DNA of 32,397 nucleotides from an uncultured bacterium (GTDB taxonomy: Bacteria > Zixibacteria > MSB-5A5 > CAIYYT01): positions 1 to 32,397 of the forward strand of contig CAIYYT010000233.1 in the NCBI GenBank assembly GCA_903930455.1. Reading direction: 5' to 3'. A model generated the notes under the pieces. That model was given only the letters and a program-made list of their open reading frames with translations. It ran no database searches and was not told where the DNA came from. The position numbers and the translations under genes are program-made. Below are positions 8,835 to 32,397 of this stretch, in pieces; within the stretch, counting starts at the first letter, position 1, and each line of letters begins with the position of its first letter.

Positions 8835-10124
8835 ATGAGAGTAACTGTTACATTAGTTCTGCTTCTTGCGTTATTCAGTCTCGCTCCTGCCGCCGAGGAC
8901 TTTCACATTGGAAAGCTCTGCGTCAGTTCCAGCACAGACACTTACGCGCCGGGCGAAGTCATTGTGAAGTTCAAAGATGGCGTGAGCAAACAGCAAGCTA
9001 GTACTGCTCTGGCCGATCTCGGCACGTCAGTGATTTCGACTAATGCTCAAATCGGAATCCAGGTGCTCAATATCCCGGCTGGCAAGACGGTCGAGGAAAT
9101 GGTCGCTACCTTCAGCGCCCGGGCCGACGTGGAATACGCCGAGCCGAACTATATCGCTCATGAGTTTATGACTCCGAACGATCCATACTATGTTTATCAG
9201 TGGCACCTGCCCCTCATTAACATGCCGGCTGCCTGGGATCAATCGACCGGCATACCCGGTGTGGTCGTGGCGGTCATCGACTGCGGTGTGGCCTATGAAA
9301 CTTACGGAGCCTTCACGCAGGCGCCGGATCTGGCAGGCACCCATTTTGTCGCCGGATATGACTATGTCAACAACGACAGCCATCCGGACGATGACTGCGC
9401 CCACGGTACGCACGTAACCGGCACCATCGCGCAGACCACTAATAACAGCCTCGGCGTGGCGGGCGTTGCCTTTAACTGCAGCATCATGCCGATAAAGGTT
9501 CTTGATGCCTCCGGAAACGGCACCTATGCCAATATTGTTAGCGGTATCACTTTCGCAGCCGATAACGGCGCCAAGGTAATTAACATGAGTTTTGGCGGCG
9601 CTTCGGGCTCAACGGCGCTGCAAAACGCCGTAATATATGCTTACAATAAGGGTGTCACGATCGTTTGCGCCGCGGGTAACGCAGGCACCTCCGCCGCACA
9701 GTATCCGGCAGCCTATACGCAGTGTATTTCCGTGTCGGCTGTCCGTTACGACAAGACCTATACGGATTACACTAGCTACGGTTCGACCATCGACATCTGT
9801 GCTCCCGGTGGAGATGTGAATGTCGATCAGAATGGTGACGGATATGTCGACGGCGTGCTGCAGCAGACGCACGACGGAACCAACTACGGGACATTCGGCT
9901 ATTACTTCTACTCAGGCACGTCGATGGCCTGTCCGCACGTGGCCGGCGTGGCCGCCCTGCTGATTTCCAAAAACGGTGGCACCATGACCCCCGCAGCAGT
10001 GCGGGCAGCTCTGCAAAACACCGCGACGGATCTTGGCGCGACGGGTTGGGATCAGTACTATGGCTACGGTCTGGTTAACGCGAGTGCCCGTTGGCATCGA
10101 TTTCCACCACCAATCCGCCAGTAG
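8835..10124 (+). CDS. Secreted subtilisin-like serine protease, catalytic part (frame broken at 3' end)
   Basis: A signal peptide covers about residues 1-20 (MRVTVTLVLLLALFSLAPAA). It is followed by an inhibitor/propeptide-like region with GEVIVKFKDG and VEYAEPNYIAH (to about 110), then a peptidase S8 catalytic domain. The triad is Asp149 (VVAVIDCGV, with Cys where Thr/Ser is usual), His190 (HGTHVTG) and Ser363 (GTSMACPHVAG); Asn282 is the oxyanion residue. GGAAGAG lies about 9 bases before the ATG. After YGYGLVNASA, the normal end of the catalytic domain, the frame runs into unrelated residues and stops at 10124. The true continuation (two PKD domains and a sorting domain) lies in the next frame from about 10088. 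The protease domain is intact. Most likely one gene split by a one-base deletion or sequencing error. Confidence 0.93.
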   Translation: MRVTVTLVLLLALFSLAPAAEDFHIGKLCVSSSTDTYAPGEVIVKFKDGVSKQQASTALADLGTSVISTNAQIGIQVLNIPAGKTVEEMVATFSARADVEYAEPNYIAHEFMTPNDPYYVYQWHLPLINMPAAWDQSTGIPGVVVAVIDCGVAYETYGAFTQAPDLAGTHFVAGYDYVNNDSHPDDDCAHGTHVTGTIAQTTNNSLGVAGVAFNCSIMPIKVLDASGNGTYANIVSGITFAADNGAKVINMSFGGASGSTALQNAVIYAYNKGVTIVCAAGNAGTSAAQYPAAYTQCISVSAVRYDKTYTDYTSYGSTIDICAPGGDVNVDQNGDGYVDGVLQQTHDGTNYGTFGYYFYSGTSMACPHVAGVAALLISKNGGTMTPAAVRAALQNTATDLGATGWDQYYGYGLVNASARWHRFPPPIRQ

Positions 10125-11470
10125 CCGCGTTCTCCGGGACGCCGACTTCGGGCACTTATCCTCTGACGGTTACCTTCACTGACGCGTCAACCTACACTCC
10201 AACCAGCTGGGCTTGGACGTTCGGTGACGGCGGTACTTCGACCGTGCAGAATCCGTCGCATATCTACACGGCGGCGGGCACCTACACGGTAGCGCTGACG
10301 GCGACCAACGCCTACGGTTCAAATACGCTGACTAAGACCGGTTACATTACAGTCACGGCTCCGAACACCAATCCGCCGGTAGCCGCGTTCTCAGGTACAC
10401 CGACTTCGGGTACGATTCCGTTGACGGTTGTTTTCACCGACGCGTCGACCAACACTCCGACTAGTTGGGCCTGGACGTTTGGCGACGGCGGCACTTCGAC
10501 CGTGAAGAATCCGTCGCATATCTACACGACAGCGGGCACCTACACGGTTGCGCTGACGGCCACCAACGCGTATGGTTCAAACACATTGACCAAGACCAGC
10601 TATATCACGGCATCGGCTGTGACTCAGAGTTGTGACGATTTTGCTGATGGCAGTATCACCGACTGGCTTAACAAGAGTGGCACCTGGACGGCGACCGGCG
10701 GTTACATGAAGGGCAATTCGACCACAACCAACGCCAGGACGACTTCGCCGTTCGGTTCATATTCGACGGCCACAATCAACTGCAGCGTGCGGATGAACAC
10801 GGGACGTTCAACAAGAAACGCTCGTATCATCTTTGGCTACACCAATACCACCAACTACCGTTATATTCAGGGTGACGACGTTGGCAACACTTGGAAGATT
10901 TACGAAATGACTAGTGGAAGCTCCAGTCAGAAGGCTTCCTGGTCAAGCACGATCAGCACTGCTACGTGGTATGCAGTCACGGTGAAAGTCTTCTCCACTG
11001 GTGTCGTGTCGGTTGCGGTCGGCGGCACAACGCTCGGATCGTATACCTTCTCGTCGGTCAAGACCGGACCGGTCGGCGTGGGTTACAACAATTCCAATTC
11101 CGACTTCGACAATTTCTGTGTCTCCTCGGCTGTGGCTTCCTCGGACGATTGGGTAGAGATGGGCGAAGGTCAGACTGAAGCGAGCCTTCCGACAACATTC
11201 ACTCTGAATCAGAACCATCCGAACCCGTTCAATCCGAGCACGGTCATCTCTTACTCTCTGACGACGTCAGCCGACGTTGAGTTGGTTGTGATCAACGTGT
11301 TGGGTCAGCAGATTCGGACTTTGGTCAACCAATACCAATCAGCCGGTGATCACAGTGTGGTCTGGGATGGAAGGGACCAGGGCGGCAATCAGGTTGCTTC
11401 CGGTATCTACTTCTATCGCATGACATCGGCCGGCAGTGTTGATACTAAGAAGATGCTTTTGATGAAGTAG
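10088..11470 (+). CDS. Subtilase continuation: two PKD domains, LamG-like domain, sorting domain
   Basis: This is the -1 frame continuation of the preceding subtilase. Its first codons read PLASISTTNPP without a proper start (a TTG at 10091, no ribosome binding site), so it is not expected to be translated alone. Two PKD domains (about 86 residues each, with FTDASTYTPTSWAWTFGDGG and NPSHIYTAAGTYTVALTATN) are followed by about 150 residues of a concanavalin/LamG-like beta-sandwich (CDDFADGSITDWLNKSGTW onward). The last ~85 residues are a FlgD-like/T9SS type A sorting domain: FTLNQNHPNPFNPSTVISY, VVINVLGQQIRTLV, GIYFYRMTSAG and KKMLLMK. PKD domains are typical substrate- or surface-binding parts of secreted proteases. 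If the frame break is real, the released protease would lack its sorting signal. Confidence 0.88.
   Translation, partial: PLASISTTNPPVAAFSGTPTSGTYPLTVTFTDASTYTPTSWAWTFGDGGTSTVQNPSHIYTAAGTYTVALTATNAYGSNTLTKTGYITVTAPNTNPPVAAFSGTPTSGTIPLTVVFTDASTNTPTSWAWTFGDGGTSTVKNPSHIYTTAGTYTVALTATNAYGSNTLTKTSYITASAVTQSCDDFADGSITDWLNKSGTWTATGGYMKGNSTTTNARTTSPFGSYSTATINCSVRMNTGRSTRNARIIFGYTNTTNYRYIQGDDVGNTWKIYEMTSGSSSQKASWSSTISTATWYAVTVKVFSTGVVSVAVGGTTLGSYTFSSVKTGPVGVGYNNSNSDFDNFCVSSAVASSDDWVEMGEGQTEASLPTTFTLNQNHPNPFNPSTVISYSLTTSADVELVVINVLGQQIRTLVNQYQSAGDHSVVWDGRDQGGNQVASGIYFYRMTSAGSVDTKKMLLMK
10111..10626 (+). repeat. Direct repeat of 258 bases encoding the two PKD domains
   Basis: CAATCCGCC plus GTAGCCGCGTTCTC begins at 10111 and again at 10369, an offset of 258 bases (86 codons). 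Similarity stays high over the whole unit, with many differences at third codon positions. It is an in-frame internal duplication and a likely hot spot for recombination or assembly collapse. Confidence 0.85.
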
Positions 11471-23366: not shown

Positions 23367-24785
23367 ATGGACTTAGGATCGTTCTCCCCGACCTTGACAA
23401 ATTGCATTCGCCGGGCGCAGGAACTGGCTAAGAGCTATTTCCATGCCGAAATCACGCCCAACCATTTCTTTCTGACGCTGCTGCGCGATGAGTCTGGCGA
23501 ACTGGCAGCGATTTTCAAACAACTGGGCAAGAAACCGGAATACTTCGAAGCGCTGCTGGCTGACGAGCTATCAAGAATGCGAAAGCTGTCAACGGATGAG
23601 GTGAAGCCGGTTGCCGCCCCTGCGCTGCAATCAATGTTGGTAGCAGCAGGTAACAAAGCCGAAAAATACTCAGATTCGGAAGTACGCGCCGAACACGTGT
23701 TGATGGTGTTCGTGTCCAAGGACTCTCCACTTTCGGAGCAAATAACCAGGCGACTTGACTTCGATGAGGGAAAAATCATCGATGCCATGGCCGATATGAA
23801 GGTCGTGCAGTCGATAGCCGGGACTCAGGTGACGACTGAAGATGGTGAGACGACTGCCGGTGCAGAGGGAATCAAGTACTGCATTGACCTAACTGAGAAG
23901 GCCCGCAGCGGCGGGCTGGACAATTTCTTTGGCAGACAGGAAGACATCTACAACATCTCGCGCGTGTTGATCCGTCGGCGCAAGAATAACCCGATTTTGG
24001 TCGGACCTCCGGGAGTAGGCAAGTCGGCGTTAGTCGAAGGTTTGGCGCTGCAGATTGTAAATAAGCAGACAACACCAGAGTTACACGACAACGTGATCCT
24101 GCATCTTGATCTGGGACAATTGGTTGCGGGTGCCAAGTACAAAGGCGAATTCGAAGAGAGATTTAACTCTCTGGTCTCTCGATTGTCCAAGGGGAAAGGC
24201 AACCTCGTGTTGTTCATCGATGAAGTGCATACCCTCGTCGGCGCCGGTAATCCGGCCGGTGGCATGGATGCCGCGAATTTGCTCAAACCGGCGTTGGCGA
24301 GAGGCGCGTTCAAGGTAATCGGCGCAACGACCAACGAGGAATACCGCAAGTATATCGAAAAAGACAAAGCGCTTGATCGTCGTTTCCAAAGAGTGATGGT
24401 AGAGGAACCAAAGTTCAACGAAGCGCGGGAGATTTTGGCGGGCGTGCGCAATGTTTACAGCAAGCATCACAATCTGACTATTCCCGACAGTGTCGTTGAC
24501 GAGTCAATCCGACTGTCACAGCGCTACATCGGCGACAGGTTTCTGCCGGACAAGGCAATCGATCTGTTGGATGAGGCCTGTGCGTCGTTTCGTCTAAACT
24601 GCACGCGCACCAAGAATGGCCTTGAAGGACTCAAGAAGAAAGCAGATGAGCTTAAGTCGCTGCTTGCGGATAAGAACGCTGCTACTAGCGACGACAAGCT
24701 TGATGAAACGACAAGAACGAAGCTGCGGGCTTTTAACGACGAATTTGAAGAATTGCATTCGCTCTGGAAAGAGCGTGTCAAGTAG
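23367..24785 (+). CDS. tssH: TssH/ClpV-like AAA+ ATPase, N-terminal half (Clp N domain and first ATPase)
   Basis: ClpV recycles contracted T6SS sheaths; normally it is one protein of about 850 residues with two ATPase domains. Here the first half is a separate 472-residue protein. Residues about 5-130 are the Clp N (repeat) domain. The first AAA+ domain has Walker A GPPGVGKS (213-220), pore loop AKYKGEFEERF, Walker B VLFIDEVH (281-288) and arginine fingers in ALDRRFQRV (338/339). The end (about 420-472) is a charged coiled-coil stretch like the first part of the ClpB/ClpV M domain, then TAG. TAA and TAG follow in frame before the second half, so it is not one nonsense mutation. Start: ATG at 23367; a TTG three codons earlier is possible, and no strong ribosome binding site is seen. 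Codirectional with tssB/tssC. Confidence 0.87.
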   Translation: MDLGSFSPTLTNCIRRAQELAKSYFHAEITPNHFFLTLLRDESGELAAIFKQLGKKPEYFEALLADELSRMRKLSTDEVKPVAAPALQSMLVAAGNKAEKYSDSEVRAEHVLMVFVSKDSPLSEQITRRLDFDEGKIIDAMADMKVVQSIAGTQVTTEDGETTAGAEGIKYCIDLTEKARSGGLDNFFGRQEDIYNISRVLIRRRKNNPILVGPPGVGKSALVEGLALQIVNKQTTPELHDNVILHLDLGQLVAGAKYKGEFEERFNSLVSRLSKGKGNLVLFIDEVHTLVGAGNPAGGMDAANLLKPALARGAFKVIGATTNEEYRKYIEKDKALDRRFQRVMVEEPKFNEAREILAGVRNVYSKHHNLTIPDSVVDESIRLSQRYIGDRFLPDKAIDLLDEACASFRLNCTRTKNGLEGLKKKADELKSLLADKNAATSDDKLDETTRTKLRAFNDEFEELHSLWKERVK

Positions 24786-24824
24786 TGTCGGCGGCGATAA
24801 TCATAGCGTGGTGGGTCAAAGACA

Positions 24825-25898
24825 ATGGAAAAAGAACAAACTCAGATAAGTAGGTTCCAAGAGAACCTTCAGAAAATGGACCGACTGGAGCAGTTCGTCA
24901 ACCAGGAAGAGTTGGCGCTGTCCCCGGAGGATGTTGCCTTTGTTATCTCGCGCTGGACCAAGATACCGGTCTCCCGGATGCTGGAAGACGAGAAGACCAA
25001 GTTGCTGCACCTCGAGGACCTTCTGGTGAAGCGCGTGGTCGATCAGGATCAGGCGATCGGCACGATTGCCGAGGCGGTAAGACGGTCGCGATCGGGAATC
25101 AAGAGACACAACCGCCCGATTGGCTCTTTCTTGTTCCTTGGACCAACCGGTACCGGCAAGACCGAGCTTGCCAAAACACTGGCGGAGTTCTTGTTTAATG
25201 ACGAATCGAACATCGTTCGATTTGATATGTCAGAGTACATGGAGAAACACTCCGTCGCCAAATTGATCGGCGCGCCGCCCGGGTATGTCGGCTATGATCA
25301 AGGCGGACTGCTGACAGAGAAAGTCAGACGCAATCCGTTTTCCGTCGTCCTCTTTGACGAGGTCGAAAAGGCCGATCCGGATGTGTTCAACATCATGCTG
25401 CAGATCATGGATGACGGCAGACTCACTGACGGACAGGGGAATACGATTGATTTCACCAATACGATCGTCATTCTGACTTCAAATTTCGGCGCGCACTACA
25501 TTCTCGACTGCTATCGCGAAAACAAGCCGGTGGAGCGCGACGAGATGATGAATGTCTTGAAGACGAAATTCCGACCGGAGTTCCTCAATCGTTTGGAGTG
25601 GATTATTTTCCGGCCGTTGACGGAAGTCGGTATCGGCACGATTGTTGATATCCAACTCAAAGTGATCAATGGCATCCTCAAGGATCAGAAGATGACAATC
25701 GTCTGCTCGACGGATGCCAAAAAGGCGCTGGCGGCCCGGGGCTACAATTTTGAGATGGGTGCGCGCCCGCTACAACGCTTGATTGAGAAGGAAATCCTAA
25801 ATCCCCTTTCGATCGGCATTATCGACGGCCGTTTTCCCGAAGGATCGAACGTCGAAGTGCGGATGAACAAAGAAAATTTCGAAATCGTGAAAGTATAG
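24825..25898 (+). CDS. tssH: TssH/ClpV-like AAA+ ATPase, C-terminal half (second ATPase)
   Basis: 357 residues that align to the second half of ClpB/ClpV. It starts with a helical stretch (MEKEQTQISRFQENLQKM, the other side of the M-domain region), then the linker ISRWTKIPVSRM (ClpB VxxWTGIPVSKM). The second AAA+ domain has Walker A GPTGTGKT (106-113), pore loop GYVGYDQGG, Walker B VVLFDEVEKA, arginine finger RPEFLNRL (Arg256) and sensor-2 GARPLQR (Arg314). All motifs are intact, so an active ATPase is expected that assembles with the N-terminal half. The frame is the same as the first half; a 39-base gap holds TAA and TAG and a weak GGTGGG site about 9 bases before the ATG. tssB follows after 16 bases. 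Confidence 0.87.
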   Translation: MEKEQTQISRFQENLQKMDRLEQFVNQEELALSPEDVAFVISRWTKIPVSRMLEDEKTKLLHLEDLLVKRVVDQDQAIGTIAEAVRRSRSGIKRHNRPIGSFLFLGPTGTGKTELAKTLAEFLFNDESNIVRFDMSEYMEKHSVAKLIGAPPGYVGYDQGGLLTEKVRRNPFSVVLFDEVEKADPDVFNIMLQIMDDGRLTDGQGNTIDFTNTIVILTSNFGAHYILDCYRENKPVERDEMMNVLKTKFRPEFLNRLEWIIFRPLTEVGIGTIVDIQLKVINGILKDQKMTIVCSTDAKKALAARGYNFEMGARPLQRLIEKEILNPLSIGIIDGRFPEGSNVEVRMNKENFEIVKV

Positions 25899-25914: not shown

Positions 25915-26370
25915 ATGGCAGACGAATTTCGTATTGCTGCTCCCCACATTGGCACTACGGAGTACAAGGAAAAGAGCGATTCGATTCCGGTCGACCTGCT
26001 CCCGTCGAACAAAATGGTTTATCTGACCAAGCTGAATTCGCGCGAGGAGACCGAGCCGGAGATGACGCGATGCAAGAACCTGAAAGAAGTCTTCGCAACG
26101 TTCCGTCCGACGAACGAGGTAACCGTCCAGAAACAGGACGGGTCGGAAGAGTCGGTGGAATTGGAATTCAACGCGATGAAGGATTTTGGTTCGATGGAGA
26201 TCATTCAGAAGAATGAATATCTGCAGTCGAAGTACAACGAAGTGGAAATCCTGCGCAATCTCAAGAACCTTCTGGATAAGCCGAACTCCAAGTTGAAAAA
26301 GGACCTGGCGTCACCGGAGAAGAAGGCTGAGTTCCTGAGAGTTCTCAAATCGTACGTCGATCAACTGTAA
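25915..26370 (+). CDS. tssB: T6SS contractile sheath small subunit
   Basis: 151 residues, VipA/TssB family, Bacteroidetes-like form. With TssC it builds the contractile sheath around the Hcp tube. Seen: the N-terminal EKSDSIPVDLLPSNKMVYLT segment (beta-strands that lock with TssC), SVELEFNAMKDFGSMEIIQK (like the 'F..M.DF.P..v' motif of sheath small subunits) and a C-terminal charged helical tail with LRNLKNLLDKPNSKLKKDL. AAGGAGGTAAC precedes the ATG. Next to tssC with a 17-base gap, as in most T6SS clusters. Together with the split TssH, it may show how the remodelled ATPase contacts the sheath. Confidence 0.9.
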   Translation: MADEFRIAAPHIGTTEYKEKSDSIPVDLLPSNKMVYLTKLNSREETEPEMTRCKNLKEVFATFRPTNEVTVQKQDGSEESVELEFNAMKDFGSMEIIQKNEYLQSKYNEVEILRNLKNLLDKPNSKLKKDLASPEKKAEFLRVLKSYVDQL

Positions 26371-26387: not shown

Positions 26388-27797
26388 ATGGCTGACGAAG
26401 AAAAAGACATACAAAAGGAATCGGTTCAAGCCGAAGCCAAGGTCAAAGAGAAAGCTGACCTAAAAGACATCCTCGGAGTCGGGTTTGTCGGCTACGAGCT
26501 TGTCAAAGACCACCTGTCTCATTTCAAGAGCCAGGATGGTTTGCACATTGAAGGTGTCAAGTTCCTTGACCCGAAAAACGAGTCATTCAACAAGTTCCTT
26601 ACTTCAGAGGAATTTAAGGATCGGCGCAAGCAGTTGAAGCAACGCTTGCAGATATGGGCGGATTTGCTTGGAGCAAACGAGGCAAACTCGGACGAATTTG
26701 CCGACAAGTTGGAGAACGCGATCAAAGAGGCGGACAAGAACCTGACTGAGAACATGTCCAATATCCACGAGGCGATTCGCCCGCTGGAAACCGCCTACCG
26801 AGGCATCGACCTGTTTTTCCAGAACGCCGCCGCGCGCCCGGACAGCGAAATCTACGCCTATTTCTCCAATGTTGGCATCAGTGATCTCACCGATCCCAAC
26901 GATCGCGAGAAGTTCGAATATCTCAATCGGCAGATACACGACATCTACGGCTTGTATGACATCAAGAACAGCTACTCGCTCTGCTGCATTCCGGGATATC
27001 TCGGGTCCGTGAAAGACATCGACACGGTCGCTCGCGACATGGGAATGCCCAACAAGCTGCATGTGTTGACTGATTTCAAGCATTTCGACACATACGAAGA
27101 CCTGGCGGATGAGTTGGACGATCCGGCTTATGATGATCTGCGTGGCAACGACGAGTATAAGGCGTACATCTCGGTATTCGGCAATTATGTCAAAGCCGAA
27201 AAGCCGGAGAGCCGCTTCGACAAAGAGGCGATGTGGCTGCCGCCGTCACCGATGATGGCTGGATTGATTTACAAAAACGACAACGAGGTCGGTATCCAGG
27301 CGCCATCGGCCGGTAAAGCCAACGGCAAGATGGGTGGCGTATCGCGGACGCGGATCAAATTGTCGGAAGCCAAAAACACCAAGATCAACGAGAAGGGCAT
27401 CAACTGCGTACTGAACTGGCAGGGTGATGTCGGCGATGTCGTGGCTATGGGCGCCGATACGCTGAGCAAGGATCCCAAGTTCCGCAATTACACGATCAAG
27501 CGGACGTATGATTACATCTACAAAACGATGCGCAATTATCTGAACCAGCAGGTCTATAAAGGATTTGATGACAAGTTGAAGAAGTCGATCGACGGTGATC
27601 TGAACAAGTTCCTGAGCCTGCTGCAACGGAACAAGGTCATTAACGGTTTCACTTGCAATGTGATCGCGACCAATGAAATGATTGAGAACCAGCAGATGCT
27701 GCTGGAAGTCGCGCTCAACACCAAGACGCCGATCAAGCAGTATGTTGTCAAGCTCGAAGCGCTGGTCGATGAGTCGGGTCAGGCGGCGGTCAAATAA
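26388..27797 (+). CDS. tssC: T6SS contractile sheath large subunit
   Basis: 469 residues, VipB/TssC family, the main sheath protein. Seen: a charged N-terminal extension; a central DxxxFFQNAAARP region; GNDEYKAYISVFGNYVKAE; WLPPSPMMAGLIYKND (the conserved 'P.sp.vAGiya..d' block); GINCVLNWQGDVGDVVAMGADTL ('iN.i....G..vwG.RTl' type core); and RNYTIKRTYDYIYKTMRNYLNQQVYKG, close to the usual C-terminal core. ACGAGGAAG precedes the ATG. It is the partner of tssB just upstream, and hcp follows after 106 bases. The sheath C-terminus in other systems is where ClpV binds the small subunit's exposed helix; that could not be judged here. Confidence 0.9.
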   Translation: MADEEKDIQKESVQAEAKVKEKADLKDILGVGFVGYELVKDHLSHFKSQDGLHIEGVKFLDPKNESFNKFLTSEEFKDRRKQLKQRLQIWADLLGANEANSDEFADKLENAIKEADKNLTENMSNIHEAIRPLETAYRGIDLFFQNAAARPDSEIYAYFSNVGISDLTDPNDREKFEYLNRQIHDIYGLYDIKNSYSLCCIPGYLGSVKDIDTVARDMGMPNKLHVLTDFKHFDTYEDLADELDDPAYDDLRGNDEYKAYISVFGNYVKAEKPESRFDKEAMWLPPSPMMAGLIYKNDNEVGIQAPSAGKANGKMGGVSRTRIKLSEAKNTKINEKGINCVLNWQGDVGDVVAMGADTLSKDPKFRNYTIKRTYDYIYKTMRNYLNQQVYKGFDDKLKKSIDGDLNKFLSLLQRNKVINGFTCNVIATNEMIENQQMLLEVALNTKTPIKQYVVKLEALVDESGQAAVK

Positions 27798-27903: not shown

Positions 27904-28317
27904 ATGGCACAAGAAGTAGAACTCAAGATCGACGGCGAGAAGTTCGACAAGGTGCGCGGGGTCAGTTATGAGTTATTCACACCCCATGACACCACCGACG
28001 GCAAGCCAAGTTCGATTCCCTGCGGGCTGAAGATCAAGATCAGCCGGGAGTCGGATGACAACGTTGGCATCGCGAGATGGGCGTTTGACTCGTCGCAGGT
28101 CAACCGCAAAGCGGGCGAAATCACATTCAAGGATCCGAACCTGAAGAAGGAACTGAAGGTTCTCAAGTGGCAGAACGGTTTCGTGACCCATTACGAAGAG
28201 CACGTACCGTCCACTTCGGCGAATCCGAACGAGCAGATGTACGAGTACTTCGAGATTTCCGCCGAGTTGGTGGATATCAACGGTGTCGAGTACAAGAAGG
28301 ACTGGAAGGGCAAGTGA
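27904..28317 (+). CDS. hcp: T6SS tube protein Hcp (TssD)
   Basis: 137 residues, Bacteroidetes-type TssD/Hcp. Hexameric rings stack to form the inner tube that is shot out by the sheath. Seen: MAQEVELKIDGEKFDKVRG, SYELFTPHDTTDGKPSSIPCGLKIKIS, GEITFKDPNLKKELKVLKWQNGFV, and the C-terminal YFEISAELVDINGVEY; the strand pattern is that of the Hcp/phage tail-tube beta-barrel. AGGAGGAAG precedes the ATG, one of the strongest sites in the cluster, fitting high output. A stable hairpin (28342-28372) lies just after the stop. Confidence 0.92.
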   Translation: MAQEVELKIDGEKFDKVRGVSYELFTPHDTTDGKPSSIPCGLKIKISRESDDNVGIARWAFDSSQVNRKAGEITFKDPNLKKELKVLKWQNGFVTHYEEHVPSTSANPNEQMYEYFEISAELVDINGVEYKKDWKGK

Positions 28318-28413: not shown

Positions 28414-30285
28414 ATGCCGGTAAGAAGCGGTCAATCATATGACTCCGAGCAGACTCCCGAGTCGAACGGCCAATTGGCCGTACATTCACGCTGCGTAGTG
28501 TCGACGATGGTTCTTATCGCCAACAACGCAGTGAACTGGCCGCTGAAGTCGTTCCGACTTGAACAGAGTACATTCAACCACCACCGCTTGATTCTCAATT
28601 TCTCCCTTGATATCGAATCGATGGCTGCAGGGCAGGAGTTTGTCTCCACTTCGCAGTTCCAGGATACCATCGGCAAGAATGTCAGCCTGAAGATTACACC
28701 CGCCGACGAGTATGTCGATTCCGGTGAAGCGCTGGAGTTCATCGGCCTGATTACCAACATCGGTCTCGCTAACAGCGGCGGCGCAATGAACGTAGTAACG
28801 ATCGAAGCCATGAGCCCGACAATCCTACTGGACCAGGCTAAGGCGTACCGCTTTTACGAGAAGCAGTCCTTCCAGGATGTCGTGCGATCAATTATGGGCG
28901 CGTACAGTGTAGATACCGGCGCTATCACAATAGGCGGGGCGTTTACGAGAGATTTCTGGGCGCAGTGGTCCGAGACCGATTGGGAGTATATCACGACACG
29001 CTGGCGGACTTATCCCGGTTGGGTTTTTTATGATGGTAAGAAGCTGGTCATAGAAGAAAAAAAGAGTCGGAGTACACATAAGCTTAGCTGGCAGAAGCAT
29101 GTCGGAGCGGCCGACGTACACATGAATATGACTGGGTACAAATTCCGTAATCCGAGTTGGGACGAAGCCCAGAAACAGACACTAAACCAAGATGTGTCCG
29201 TGCAAACGCAATTCTCTGGCGTTGCACAGAAAACATACGCGTCGTCCACATCCAAAATGAATCAGACGTCATCAATTGCTATGCCGACGCGAGGTGACAC
29301 CAAACCAAGTGAACTGCAGCAGATCACCGGTGCACTACAGGCCGAGAAGATCGGCACGATGGTGTTGTGCAGGCTGCAAACAAATGTGCCGTCGCTCAAA
29401 GTCGGTGATACTCTGACGCTCGAGAAAATGGGCGATACCTATACCGGCACCTACATTATTACCGCCGTTGAGCACCGGATCGAAAACGGCAGCGACTATC
29501 ACAATTTCGTGACCGCGAGTCCATTGGAGACTGCTTATCCGACCGCCCCCGTAGCGAGAAATGAACGACAATCGGACCCGATGATGGCGATCGTGACCGA
29601 TAACAACGATCCGGACATGCGCGGACGGGTAAAAGTGAAGTTCCCTATGAAGAGCGCGAGCGGTGGTGATCTGGAGAGTCCGTGGTTGCGAACAACGAGC
29701 GGATACGCGGGCAACAATCGTGGCATGTACTTCATGCCCGAGATTAACGACGAGGTGCTAGTCGGATTTGAAATGGGTGATTCAAACATGCCGGTTGTGC
29801 TCGGTTCGCTCTGGAACGGCATCGATAAACCACCCCAATCAGCGATCAATCCGGGTGGCGATGACGGTGAGATGTCGAAGAATGACAACAAGGTGATTTA
29901 CACTCGTGCCGGACACCAGATCATCATGAGCGACAGGGACGGCGCGGGCAAGATCAAGATTGTCGACCGTACCGGCAAGAACACCATGATCATTGATTCC
30001 AAAGAGAACACAATTAGTATTACTGCCGATAAAGACTACAATCTTACCGTCAAGGGTAATATCACTATGAAGGCCGACGGTGATTTCAAGCTTGAGGCTC
30101 AAAACGTGTCGATTGACGCTAAGATGTCATGCAAAATCAAGGCGGGGGGCGGCGGCGCCGAGATAACCAGTAGCGCCATGATGAAATTGGATGCCTCGGC
30201 AAAGATGGATATTGGCGGCGCCATGATCGACATCAACGGGAAAGGACCGGTTAACGTCAAAGGCACGCCGATTTCGCTAAACTAG
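28414..30285 (+). CDS. vgrG: T6SS spike protein VgrG (TssI)
   Basis: 623 residues. A gp27-like base spans about 20-370 (LEFIGLITNIG, FQDVVRSIMGAY and WEYITTRWRTYPGWVFYDG regions, VGDTLTLEKMGDTYTGTYII). The gp5 OB-fold is next (MAIVTDNNDPDMRGRVKVKF, SPWLRTTSGYAGNNRGMYF, PEINDEVLVGFEMGDSNMPV, GSLWNG), then a C-terminal beta-prism spike with repeated strands (ITMKADGDFKLEAQNVSIDA and onwards, to PVNVKGTPISLN). It caps the Hcp tube. No extra effector domain follows, so it is a structural VgrG. The ATG at 28414 has GAGGAA about 14 bases upstream, a long spacing; an ATG at 28507 has no site. tssE follows after 3 bases. Confidence 0.92.
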   Translation: MPVRSGQSYDSEQTPESNGQLAVHSRCVVSTMVLIANNAVNWPLKSFRLEQSTFNHHRLILNFSLDIESMAAGQEFVSTSQFQDTIGKNVSLKITPADEYVDSGEALEFIGLITNIGLANSGGAMNVVTIEAMSPTILLDQAKAYRFYEKQSFQDVVRSIMGAYSVDTGAITIGGAFTRDFWAQWSETDWEYITTRWRTYPGWVFYDGKKLVIEEKKSRSTHKLSWQKHVGAADVHMNMTGYKFRNPSWDEAQKQTLNQDVSVQTQFSGVAQKTYASSTSKMNQTSSIAMPTRGDTKPSELQQITGALQAEKIGTMVLCRLQTNVPSLKVGDTLTLEKMGDTYTGTYIITAVEHRIENGSDYHNFVTASPLETAYPTAPVARNERQSDPMMAIVTDNNDPDMRGRVKVKFPMKSASGGDLESPWLRTTSGYAGNNRGMYFMPEINDEVLVGFEMGDSNMPVVLGSLWNGIDKPPQSAINPGGDDGEMSKNDNKVIYTRAGHQIIMSDRDGAGKIKIVDRTGKNTMIIDSKENTISITADKDYNLTVKGNITMKADGDFKLEAQNVSIDAKMSCKIKAGGGGAEITSSAMMKLDASAKMDIGGAMIDINGKGPVNVKGTPISLN

Positions 30286-30288
30286 ACT

Positions 30289-30636
30289 ATGGCTGACGAA
30301 GCGCTTCGTGTACCTATAGAGATCAAAGACTGCCGTTTCCTTCGCAGCGACAGAGCGGACGAATTTGCCCGATTTCTCGTGGAAACCGAGTTGGGCAGCT
30401 ATCGCCCTGATCCGGAACTGGGCTGCCGTTCGCCGTACTTTACGCCGGAATATTCCAACGACTTAAAGACTGACGTGCGCAACCACGTGTTGGAACAGTT
30501 TCGGCGCTATATGGGCGTCATGGTCAATGTCACGATTTCCGACAAGGTTGAACAAAACATCACCGCGACTTTCACCTGTCGCGTCTATGGAACCGCGCGA
30601 GACGGGCAGCGTTTCGATCTCTCCTGGGAGATATGA
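30289..30636 (+). CDS. tssE: T6SS baseplate wedge protein TssE (gp25-like)
   Basis: 115 residues, gp25/lysozyme-like baseplate family. It nucleates sheath assembly at the wedge. Seen: a central ETELGSYRPDPELGCRSPYF region, NDLKTDVRNHVLEQFRRYMG (compare the E-R-rich helix of gp25) and TFTCRVYGTARDGQRFDLSWEI at the C-terminus. The start is 3 bases after vgrG's stop, with translational coupling likely; tssF begins 3 bases after its own stop. Its small size is normal for TssE. Confidence 0.87.
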   Translation: MADEALRVPIEIKDCRFLRSDRADEFARFLVETELGSYRPDPELGCRSPYFTPEYSNDLKTDVRNHVLEQFRRYMGVMVNVTISDKVEQNITATFTCRVYGTARDGQRFDLSWEI

Positions 30637-30639
30637 TCC

Positions 30640-32394
30640 TTGAACACCAAATGGACTGACCGCGAAGAGCGGGTATACAACGAGTTAGTTGATCGACTTC
30701 GTTTCTGGGGCTATCAAGTGCCGTCGGGCGAGAAGTCGCTTGACCCGGCTCTGCTGTTGATGCTCAAAGCATTTGCCTATCATGCCGTGCAAACCGAGGA
30801 CAAGTTGAAGCAGGCCTCGGAAACAGTGATCGACACGATGATAGCGGATTTCTTTATGACGGGATTGAAGCGACCGATTCCGGCGTTTACGATGTTATCC
30901 TGTCACTGCTCCGACAAAGGGACTGTGGTTGAAACCGATATGGAATTTCTCTGTCGACTCTCCGGGGCCAGAGAGCGAGACTATTCGTTCTTCCCACTCT
31001 ATGATCAGGAAGTGTACGACGTAAATGCCGATGTGGTCTTCTTTGTCTCCGGCGATTATTTCCGGGTGCTGAAGGCACTACCGCCGGAAGCGGACAAGTG
31101 GGAAGAGACATTACAATCACCGCACTATCGCACGATGCAGCGATCAGCGCCGCCGCCGCTGGGGGGCAACCTTTACGTAGGAATTACAGCCGGTCTGCCC
31201 TTTGAGGAAATTGGCGCCCTGCAGTTGTACACCGGCCCGGACGCGCCGACCGGCAAGATGCTCAACTGGGTAGACTGGCAGGTGCTGACGTCCGGAAAAC
31301 GACATCCGACGTTCAAACCAGGCAACTATCATCACAAGCTGGAGATTTTCAAACACCTTGATATCCGCGAACTGGAACTTGACAGTAGTTTTCAAAGCCG
31401 GCTCTACAGTTCCGATTTCCTGACCTCCGGCAAGTTACTCTGGCATTTTAAGCACTACCTGTCCCCTGCCAAAGGGTTCGCTCATATTCCGGCCGAGATG
31501 TATGCCACAGCCGAGAAGTTGGTGTTGCCTCCGCAGATTGAAAGCAAGTTCCCACAAATCGACTTCGGTGGAATCAAGACTCCGCGGCTATGGTTGCGGG
31601 TCGATTTGGCGCGTGATGAACGTGTCGGGGATCTGCGCAATTTCCGTTTCTTTGACACAAATACATTTCCGGTGATTAATCGCCGCAAAAACCATCGTAA
31701 CAAATACACCATGGGTCAACCGGCATTGGAAGTCAGTCTTTTTGAGTATGCTGATGCCGACTCTGCGAATCTGCCCGACAAGCTTTTTTCAATCGATCGT
31801 GTTTGGGACGCCAATGACAATGAGTATTCCAGCCATCTCGATCTGATGGCTTTCGCAAATCCACGCAAATACATGGTCGTTGAGGAAGAGAATGACCTCA
31901 AGATCAAGTTCAATTTTGTGCCGACCGGCAAGGAAGCCCCCGACTTCGTAGTGGTCGAGTACTCTATGACGGAAGGGAGCGACGGCAATGGGATCGGCGC
32001 CGAAGTCGACTTCCAGTTGGTGAAACCCCATCCACAGATCAAGGCTGTTCGCAACCTGATTACATCTTCGGGTGGATCGGACGCTCGATCGCTCCAGGAG
32101 ATCAAACATCTCACGGGATTCTTCCTGCGCAATCATGGCGTGGCGCTTTCGGAAGGGGAGATTGAATATCTGGCGCGCAACTTTGATGGCCGCATCGAGG
32201 AGGCCAAGGCGATACGTGGCGTAAGTCGCAGCGCCGGTGGTCTGGTTCCGTCAGTGCTTGTCGAAGTGCGTCTCAAGTCGGACTTGAAAATCTCGGACGA
32301 GGAACGACAATACCTGTTGCAGCGGCTAAGTGATTATCTCGATAGTTACACGCCGCTTAATCTCCACCTCGAAGCGAGGCTGGCAGGATCATGA
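30640..32394 (+). CDS. tssF: T6SS baseplate protein TssF
   Basis: 584 residues; the TTG start at 30640 is used because GGGAGAT (30625-30631) precedes it at normal spacing and no ATG near by is open. TssF forms the baseplate wedge with TssE, TssG and TssK. It is assigned from position between tssE and the next gene, from length (about 580-620 residues is normal) and from a repeated beta-strand/helix pattern with LQLYTGPDAPTGKMLNWVDW, LLWHFKHYLSPAKGFAHIPA and RLWLRVDLARDERVGDLRNF. The C-terminus (LKISDEERQYLLQRLSDYLD) matches the end of TssF-type baseplate proteins. The stop overlaps the next start (ATGA at 32391), a mark of translational coupling. Confidence lower than for the other T6SS genes. 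Confidence 0.75.
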   Translation: MNTKWTDREERVYNELVDRLRFWGYQVPSGEKSLDPALLLMLKAFAYHAVQTEDKLKQASETVIDTMIADFFMTGLKRPIPAFTMLSCHCSDKGTVVETDMEFLCRLSGARERDYSFFPLYDQEVYDVNADVVFFVSGDYFRVLKALPPEADKWEETLQSPHYRTMQRSAPPPLGGNLYVGITAGLPFEEIGALQLYTGPDAPTGKMLNWVDWQVLTSGKRHPTFKPGNYHHKLEIFKHLDIRELELDSSFQSRLYSSDFLTSGKLLWHFKHYLSPAKGFAHIPAEMYATAEKLVLPPQIESKFPQIDFGGIKTPRLWLRVDLARDERVGDLRNFRFFDTNTFPVINRRKNHRNKYTMGQPALEVSLFEYADADSANLPDKLFSIDRVWDANDNEYSSHLDLMAFANPRKYMVVEEENDLKIKFNFVPTGKEAPDFVVVEYSMTEGSDGNGIGAEVDFQLVKPHPQIKAVRNLITSSGGSDARSLQEIKHLTGFFLRNHGVALSEGEIEYLARNFDGRIEEAKAIRGVSRSAGGLVPSVLVEVRLKSDLKISDEERQYLLQRLSDYLDSYTPLNLHLEARLAGS

Positions 32395-32397
32395 AGA
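32391..32397 (+). CDS. Start of the next T6SS gene (probably tssG), cut by window edge
   Basis: Only ATGAAGA is visible. The ATG overlaps the tssF stop (ATGA). tssG is the usual gene here, but two codons cannot prove it. Confidence 0.35.

Follow-up and report, generated by a model that had tools for sequence, protein, structure and literature searches.

ClpV, also named TssH, is known as a single polypeptide in the type VI secretion system (T6SS), where it is expected to disassemble the contracted sheath. The stretch analyzed here, referred to below as the window, is an entire 32,397-nucleotide contig (CAIYYT010000233.1, assembly GCA_903930455.1) of an uncultured bacterium of the Zixibacteria, and it carries TssH as two adjacent genes. 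Precedents for such a division come from the related chaperone ClpB. According to the portion of PMC2689388 that cites Beinker et al. 2005, its two nucleotide-binding domains (NBD1 and NBD2) form a complex non-covalently once NBD2 gains 15 N-terminal residues including the last NBD1 helix, and ClpB NBD1-M expressed separately is an active, cooperative ATPase (PMC4239642). In the literature searched, which leaves outside it most subscription papers and all preprints, we found no description of a two-gene ClpV/TssH, and nothing on contractile injection in Zixibacteria or on gene fission of ClpV/TssH. The two genes and the interval between them are as follows:

23367-24785, forward strand: TssH-N (ORF1), 472 aa; ATG at 23367, TAG at 24783-24785; assigned by Pfam (Clp_N PF02861, AAA PF00004, AAA_lid_9 PF17871), motifs and fold.
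24786-24824, forward strand: spacer of 39 nt with additional in-frame stops, TAA at 24798-24800 and TAG at 24804-24806.
24825-25898, forward strand: TssH-C (ORF2), 357 aa; ATG at 24825, TAG at 25896-25898; assigned by Pfam (AAA_2 PF07724, ClpB_D2-small PF10431), motifs and fold.

TssH-N comprises the Clp N domain, NBD1 (the first AAA+ ATPase), its lid and the M region's first two helices, and TssH-C the last M-region helix (approximately residues 7-25), NBD2 (the second AAA+ ATPase) and the D2-small domain. Both ATPases possess Walker A (GPPGVGKS at 24003 in ORF1, GPTGTGKT at 25140 in ORF2), the DE pair of Walker B (24207 and 25344), a pore loop (KYKG at 24135, GYVG at 25281) and an arginine finger (RRF at 24363, NR at 25575), with sensor 2 GAR at 25758 in ORF2; the catalytic residues do not vary across the aligned split homologues. 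The domain set of TssH/ClpV, Clp N plus two AAA+ domains whose catalytic motifs are intact, is present, spread over two proteins in place of the single polypeptide as which TssH/ClpV is known. Both coding parts lie in one frame, interrupted by three in-frame stops. A first-pass annotation made from the letters alone had proposed this two-protein TssH, and much of it stands: Pfam supports its assignment of Clp N and the first ATPase to ORF1 and the second ATPase to ORF2, all Walker, pore-loop and arginine-finger motifs that it reported were located and are invariant in split homologues, and its account of one frame with TAG, TAA and TAG and 39 bases agrees with the coordinates.

The same annotation suggested searching related genomes for the split, arguing that a single sequencing error could not explain it and that it may be a variant of the Fibrobacterota–Chlorobiota–Bacteroidota (FCB) group. 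Counted from search rows, 59 of 133 Zixibacteria genomes contain a TssH-type NBD1, and in all 59 the frame holding it is at most 516 aa long, with a few of these frames truncated by contig ends. No intact TssH of the window's type was detected among the 133 genomes, whose ClpB/ClpC genes mostly occupy frames of about 800-900 aa. Single-contig genomes possess the split as well (e.g., G060, G081, G091, G097, G107 and G108). The two-gene form is therefore widespread and conserved, which rules out a broken gene as well as a sequencing error; the proposed FCB-group variant proves to be conserved across one phylum of that group, Zixibacteria. Organism names of the relatives, taken from public records, are mostly Candidatus Zixiibacteriota, with Krumholzibacteriota and Latescibacterota in addition. 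One record, L129, is probably misnamed: titled Ignavibacterium sp., it seems identical to the contig of G072, which belongs to the class of the Zixibacteria window. A distinct second T6SS occurs in other Zixibacteria families (L078, L079, L080 and L081; G020, G033, G043 and G048); its TssH is intact, about 813 aa long, and its TssC shares only about 33% identity with that of the window.

Both halves are under strong purifying selection, no weaker than that on TssC. For ORF2 this speaks against one refuting condition of the first-pass annotation, a second ORF without expression, just as the split in related Zixibacteria speaks against the other, an uninterrupted gene. Within the window family (the window, G002, G003 and G004), Nei-Gojobori ratios of nonsynonymous to synonymous substitution (dN/dS), calculated only where dS was estimable, were 0.045-0.067 for ORF1, 0.03-0.06 for ORF2 and 0.06-0.08 for TssC, figures that are rough because synonymous sites are near saturation.

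The junction between the two genes was compared in 55 non-identical split loci. The start of ORF2 overlaps the stop of ORF1 in 48 of them, by -4 (ATGA/GTGA) in 37 loci and by -1 (TAATG/TGATG) in 11. Upstream of the ORF2 start, inside the end of ORF1, a Shine-Dalgarno core is found in 42 of the 48 overlap loci, compared with 14% of random ORF1 windows; slippery heptamers within the last 60 nt of ORF1 occur in only two. The frequency of the former and rarity of the latter favor translationally coupled synthesis of two proteins over frameshifting, and the overlap loci are probably translated in this way. Members of the window family have gaps at this place (39 nt in the window, 75 in G002, 36 in G003 and 37 in G004), conserved neither in length nor in sequence. 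In another locus, L152 (G117:C405), ORF1 ends with a TAG 43 nt ahead of the ORF2 start; the genome search likewise shows a TAG in frame at this place, so the codon may reflect a premature stop or an error of sequencing.

Intact TssH proteins of 840-842 aa, encoded in identical gene order, are found in Krumholzibacteriota and Latescibacterota. When split and intact proteins are aligned, the break falls in an M-region loop that varies among them, in agreement with the M-region break of the first-pass annotation, and AlphaFold likewise places it between M helices. For the window protein read through as one chain, the model predicts helices at 395-434, 447-465 and 468-479 from ORF1, the last extending into the spacer, a segment at 479-488 (largely non-coding spacer) with a predicted local distance difference test score below 50, and a helix at 493-511 from ORF2. 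In the intact protein L109, helices are predicted at 402-441, 448-470 and 485-507, with a loop at the equivalent position. The break is thus predicted to be a loop between two M-domain helices, domain placement being uncertain because the predicted template modelling score (pTM) is 0.52 in both models. The nearest solved folds are those of ClpC and ClpB. ORF2 begins about 26 residues ahead of the aligned Thermus ClpB NBD2 constructs, and so has a natural N-terminal extension resembling that of the engineered ClpB NBD2.

In trees built from either half or from both combined, the intact genes of Krumholzibacteriota and Latescibacterota fall beside or within the main group of split sequences, and the window family falls outside both this group and the intact genes. 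Placing all split sequences in one clade was rejected by the approximately unbiased (AU) test (p = 8e-6). A clade of the main split group apart from the Krumholzibacteriota/Latescibacterota intact genes was not rejected (p = 0.24, 0.47 and 0.60), and in the test with p = 0.60 the tree held to that clade had the higher likelihood; re-fusion and repeated fission consequently both stand. The long branch of L063 (G086) leaves its position in the tree unsure. The history requires at least two changes between the split and intact states. These state changes, together with the ATGA/TAATG overlap in most relatives and the single-protein homologues in the two other phyla, go beyond the first-pass annotation.

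The TssH halves lie directly upstream of T6SS genes in the window:

25915-26370, forward strand: TssB (VipA), sheath small subunit; PF05591, TIGR03358.
26388-27797, forward strand: TssC (VipB), sheath large subunit; PF17541, E=6e-51.
27904-28317, forward strand: TssD (Hcp), inner tube; PF17642.
28414-30285, forward strand: TssI (VgrG), tip; PF05954, PF04717.
30289-30636, forward strand: probable TssE (gp25-like), by position alone, with no significant Pfam match; the gene at the same position in L068 matches GPW_gp25.
30640-32394, forward strand: probable TssF (baseplate); TIGR02243 at E=3e-6 and a very weak T6SS_TssF match at E=0.06; the L068 counterpart matches T6SS_TssF at E=5e-7.

The order TssH-N, TssH-C, TssB, TssC, Hcp, VgrG is kept in relatives, where the cluster goes on with TssE, TssF, TssG and TssK. 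In the window it ends at 32397, before TssG, as the window is a whole contig of its genome. The T6SS core set of sheath, tube, tip and baseplate (TssB, C, D, E, F, G, I and K) is present when the window (TssB, C, D, I and a weak TssF) is taken together with its relatives L068 (TssE, F, G and K) and L044 (TssG and TssK); the L068 TssK found no match in the window's own genome, which at such divergence carries no weight. After TssK, relatives encode a protein about 300 aa long and then a DO-GTPase2/IcmF-like protein (L044:552-3254 and L068:14553-16877). Together with a GAP1-N2 protein also encoded in L044, the latter may make up the membrane complex or stand in for it. Elsewhere in the window (8835-11470), a subtilase gene (8835-10124) overlaps a gene for a PKD/FlgD_ig protein (10091-11470) in another frame, possibly representing one frameshift-broken secreted protease.

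We consider it likely that the sheath-disassembly ATPase TssH/ClpV of this Zixibacteria T6SS consists of two proteins whose halves assemble via the M region and recycle the sheath. In most of the phylum, both halves would be translated from one message via the ATGA/TAATG overlap, with the Shine-Dalgarno sequence lying within the last part of the first gene, and TssH-N and TssH-C would consequently be made together; the window family would use the same two genes with an unconserved spacer of 36-75 nt in place of the overlap. By analogy with ClpB, the halves most likely join non-covalently through M-region helices, and the joined halves would form a two-tier hexameric ring (6 + 6), threading the contracted TssB/TssC sheath and thereby recycling it. 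The split-ClpB precedents and the natural extension of ORF2 make such a two-protein, two-tier ring the most likely arrangement. Several points weigh against this reading. The window family lacks the overlap, and its ORF2 is preceded by no more than a weak ribosome-binding site; the window protein was folded as one read-through chain (pTM 0.52), which says nothing on binding between the halves; and both halves score higher with the ClpB model of NCBIfam than with the VI_ClpV1/ClpV model, which leaves gene context as the basis for the sheath role. We also speculate, with a good deal less confidence, that the enzyme is an obligate two-subunit AAA+ unfoldase, in which NBD1 and NBD2 rings assemble, exchange or are regulated independently and ring joining controls sheath recycling, its seam having been cut more than once or re-sealed in Krumholzibacteriota/Latescibacterota.

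The higher ClpB scores could also hint at a split ClpB/ClpC-type chaperone merely neighboring the T6SS. This is highly improbable, given a separate intact 860-aa ClpB-type gene in the window genome, the clustering in trees of split proteins and T6SS-linked intact TssH, away from the ClpB/ClpC of the phylum, and the lack, in our reading of the NBD2 alignment, of a ClpP-binding loop. Taken alone, the window, with its one frame and stops within 39 nt, would permit a decaying pseudogene or a sequencing or assembly error; the same layout in many genomes, some single-contig, dN/dS of at most 0.07 in both halves, invariant catalytic residues and conserved start signals render this explanation negligible, and for the phylum it is refuted by the many-genome conservation and low dN/dS.

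The halves might instead work independently, e.g., as separate single-ring AAA+ machines of which only one serves the sheath. The activity of isolated ClpB NBD1-M (PMC4239642) agrees with this, as does the absence of an overlap in the window family, which would relax co-synthesis. We nevertheless regard independent function as unlikely, for the two genes are always adjacent, upstream of TssB/TssC where visible, both products retain M-region helices, and single-chain homologues exist with identical gene order. Less probable still is that programmed frameshifting at the ATGA overlap, or readthrough of stop codons, yields a full-length TssH and that the two-ORF layout is a detail of encoding. ORF2 does lie in the -1 frame relative to ORF1 in nearly all overlap loci, and the window halves share one frame; however, slippery heptamers are nearly absent from the junction (2 of 48), their place being taken by a start codon and a Shine-Dalgarno core, both conserved, and the window would need readthrough of three stops and G004 a different frame.

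The two-protein TssH would thus be a natural, phylum-wide Hsp100 motor with two ATPase tiers not covalently joined, standing beside intact close homologues in identical gene order, which makes long-standing questions of tier coupling testable with natural proteins. Surveys scoring TssH by whole-protein cut-offs may miss or misannotate Zixibacteria-type systems.

Compared with Bacteroidota T6SS subtype iii, the system shares TssC and Hcp matching PF17541 and PF17642; it differs in the DO-GTPase/IcmF-like protein after TssK in relatives, where no search was aimed at the TssN-TssR membrane genes. With proteobacterial TssH/ClpV (TIGR03345) it has in common the Clp N domain, two AAA+ domains, placement with TssB/TssC and the expected sheath disassembly. 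Unlike that single protein, it is encoded by two genes, which score 388 and 328 bits separately and do not pass the TIGR03345 cut-off of 885 bits; one half by itself cannot reach a threshold set for the whole protein. The intact TssH of Krumholzibacteriota/Latescibacterota (L093, L109, L113, L122 and L126) are close homologues with neighbors in identical order, closest to the main split group, but are single proteins and have a loop at the site of the Zixibacteria break. The engineered split Thermus ClpB (NBD1-M + NBD2; Beinker et al. 2005, cited in PMC2689388 and PMC4239642) is likewise broken close to where the M region ends and has an NBD2 with an N-terminal helical extension; it is a laboratory chaperone construct, whereas the Zixibacteria split is natural and T6SS-linked.
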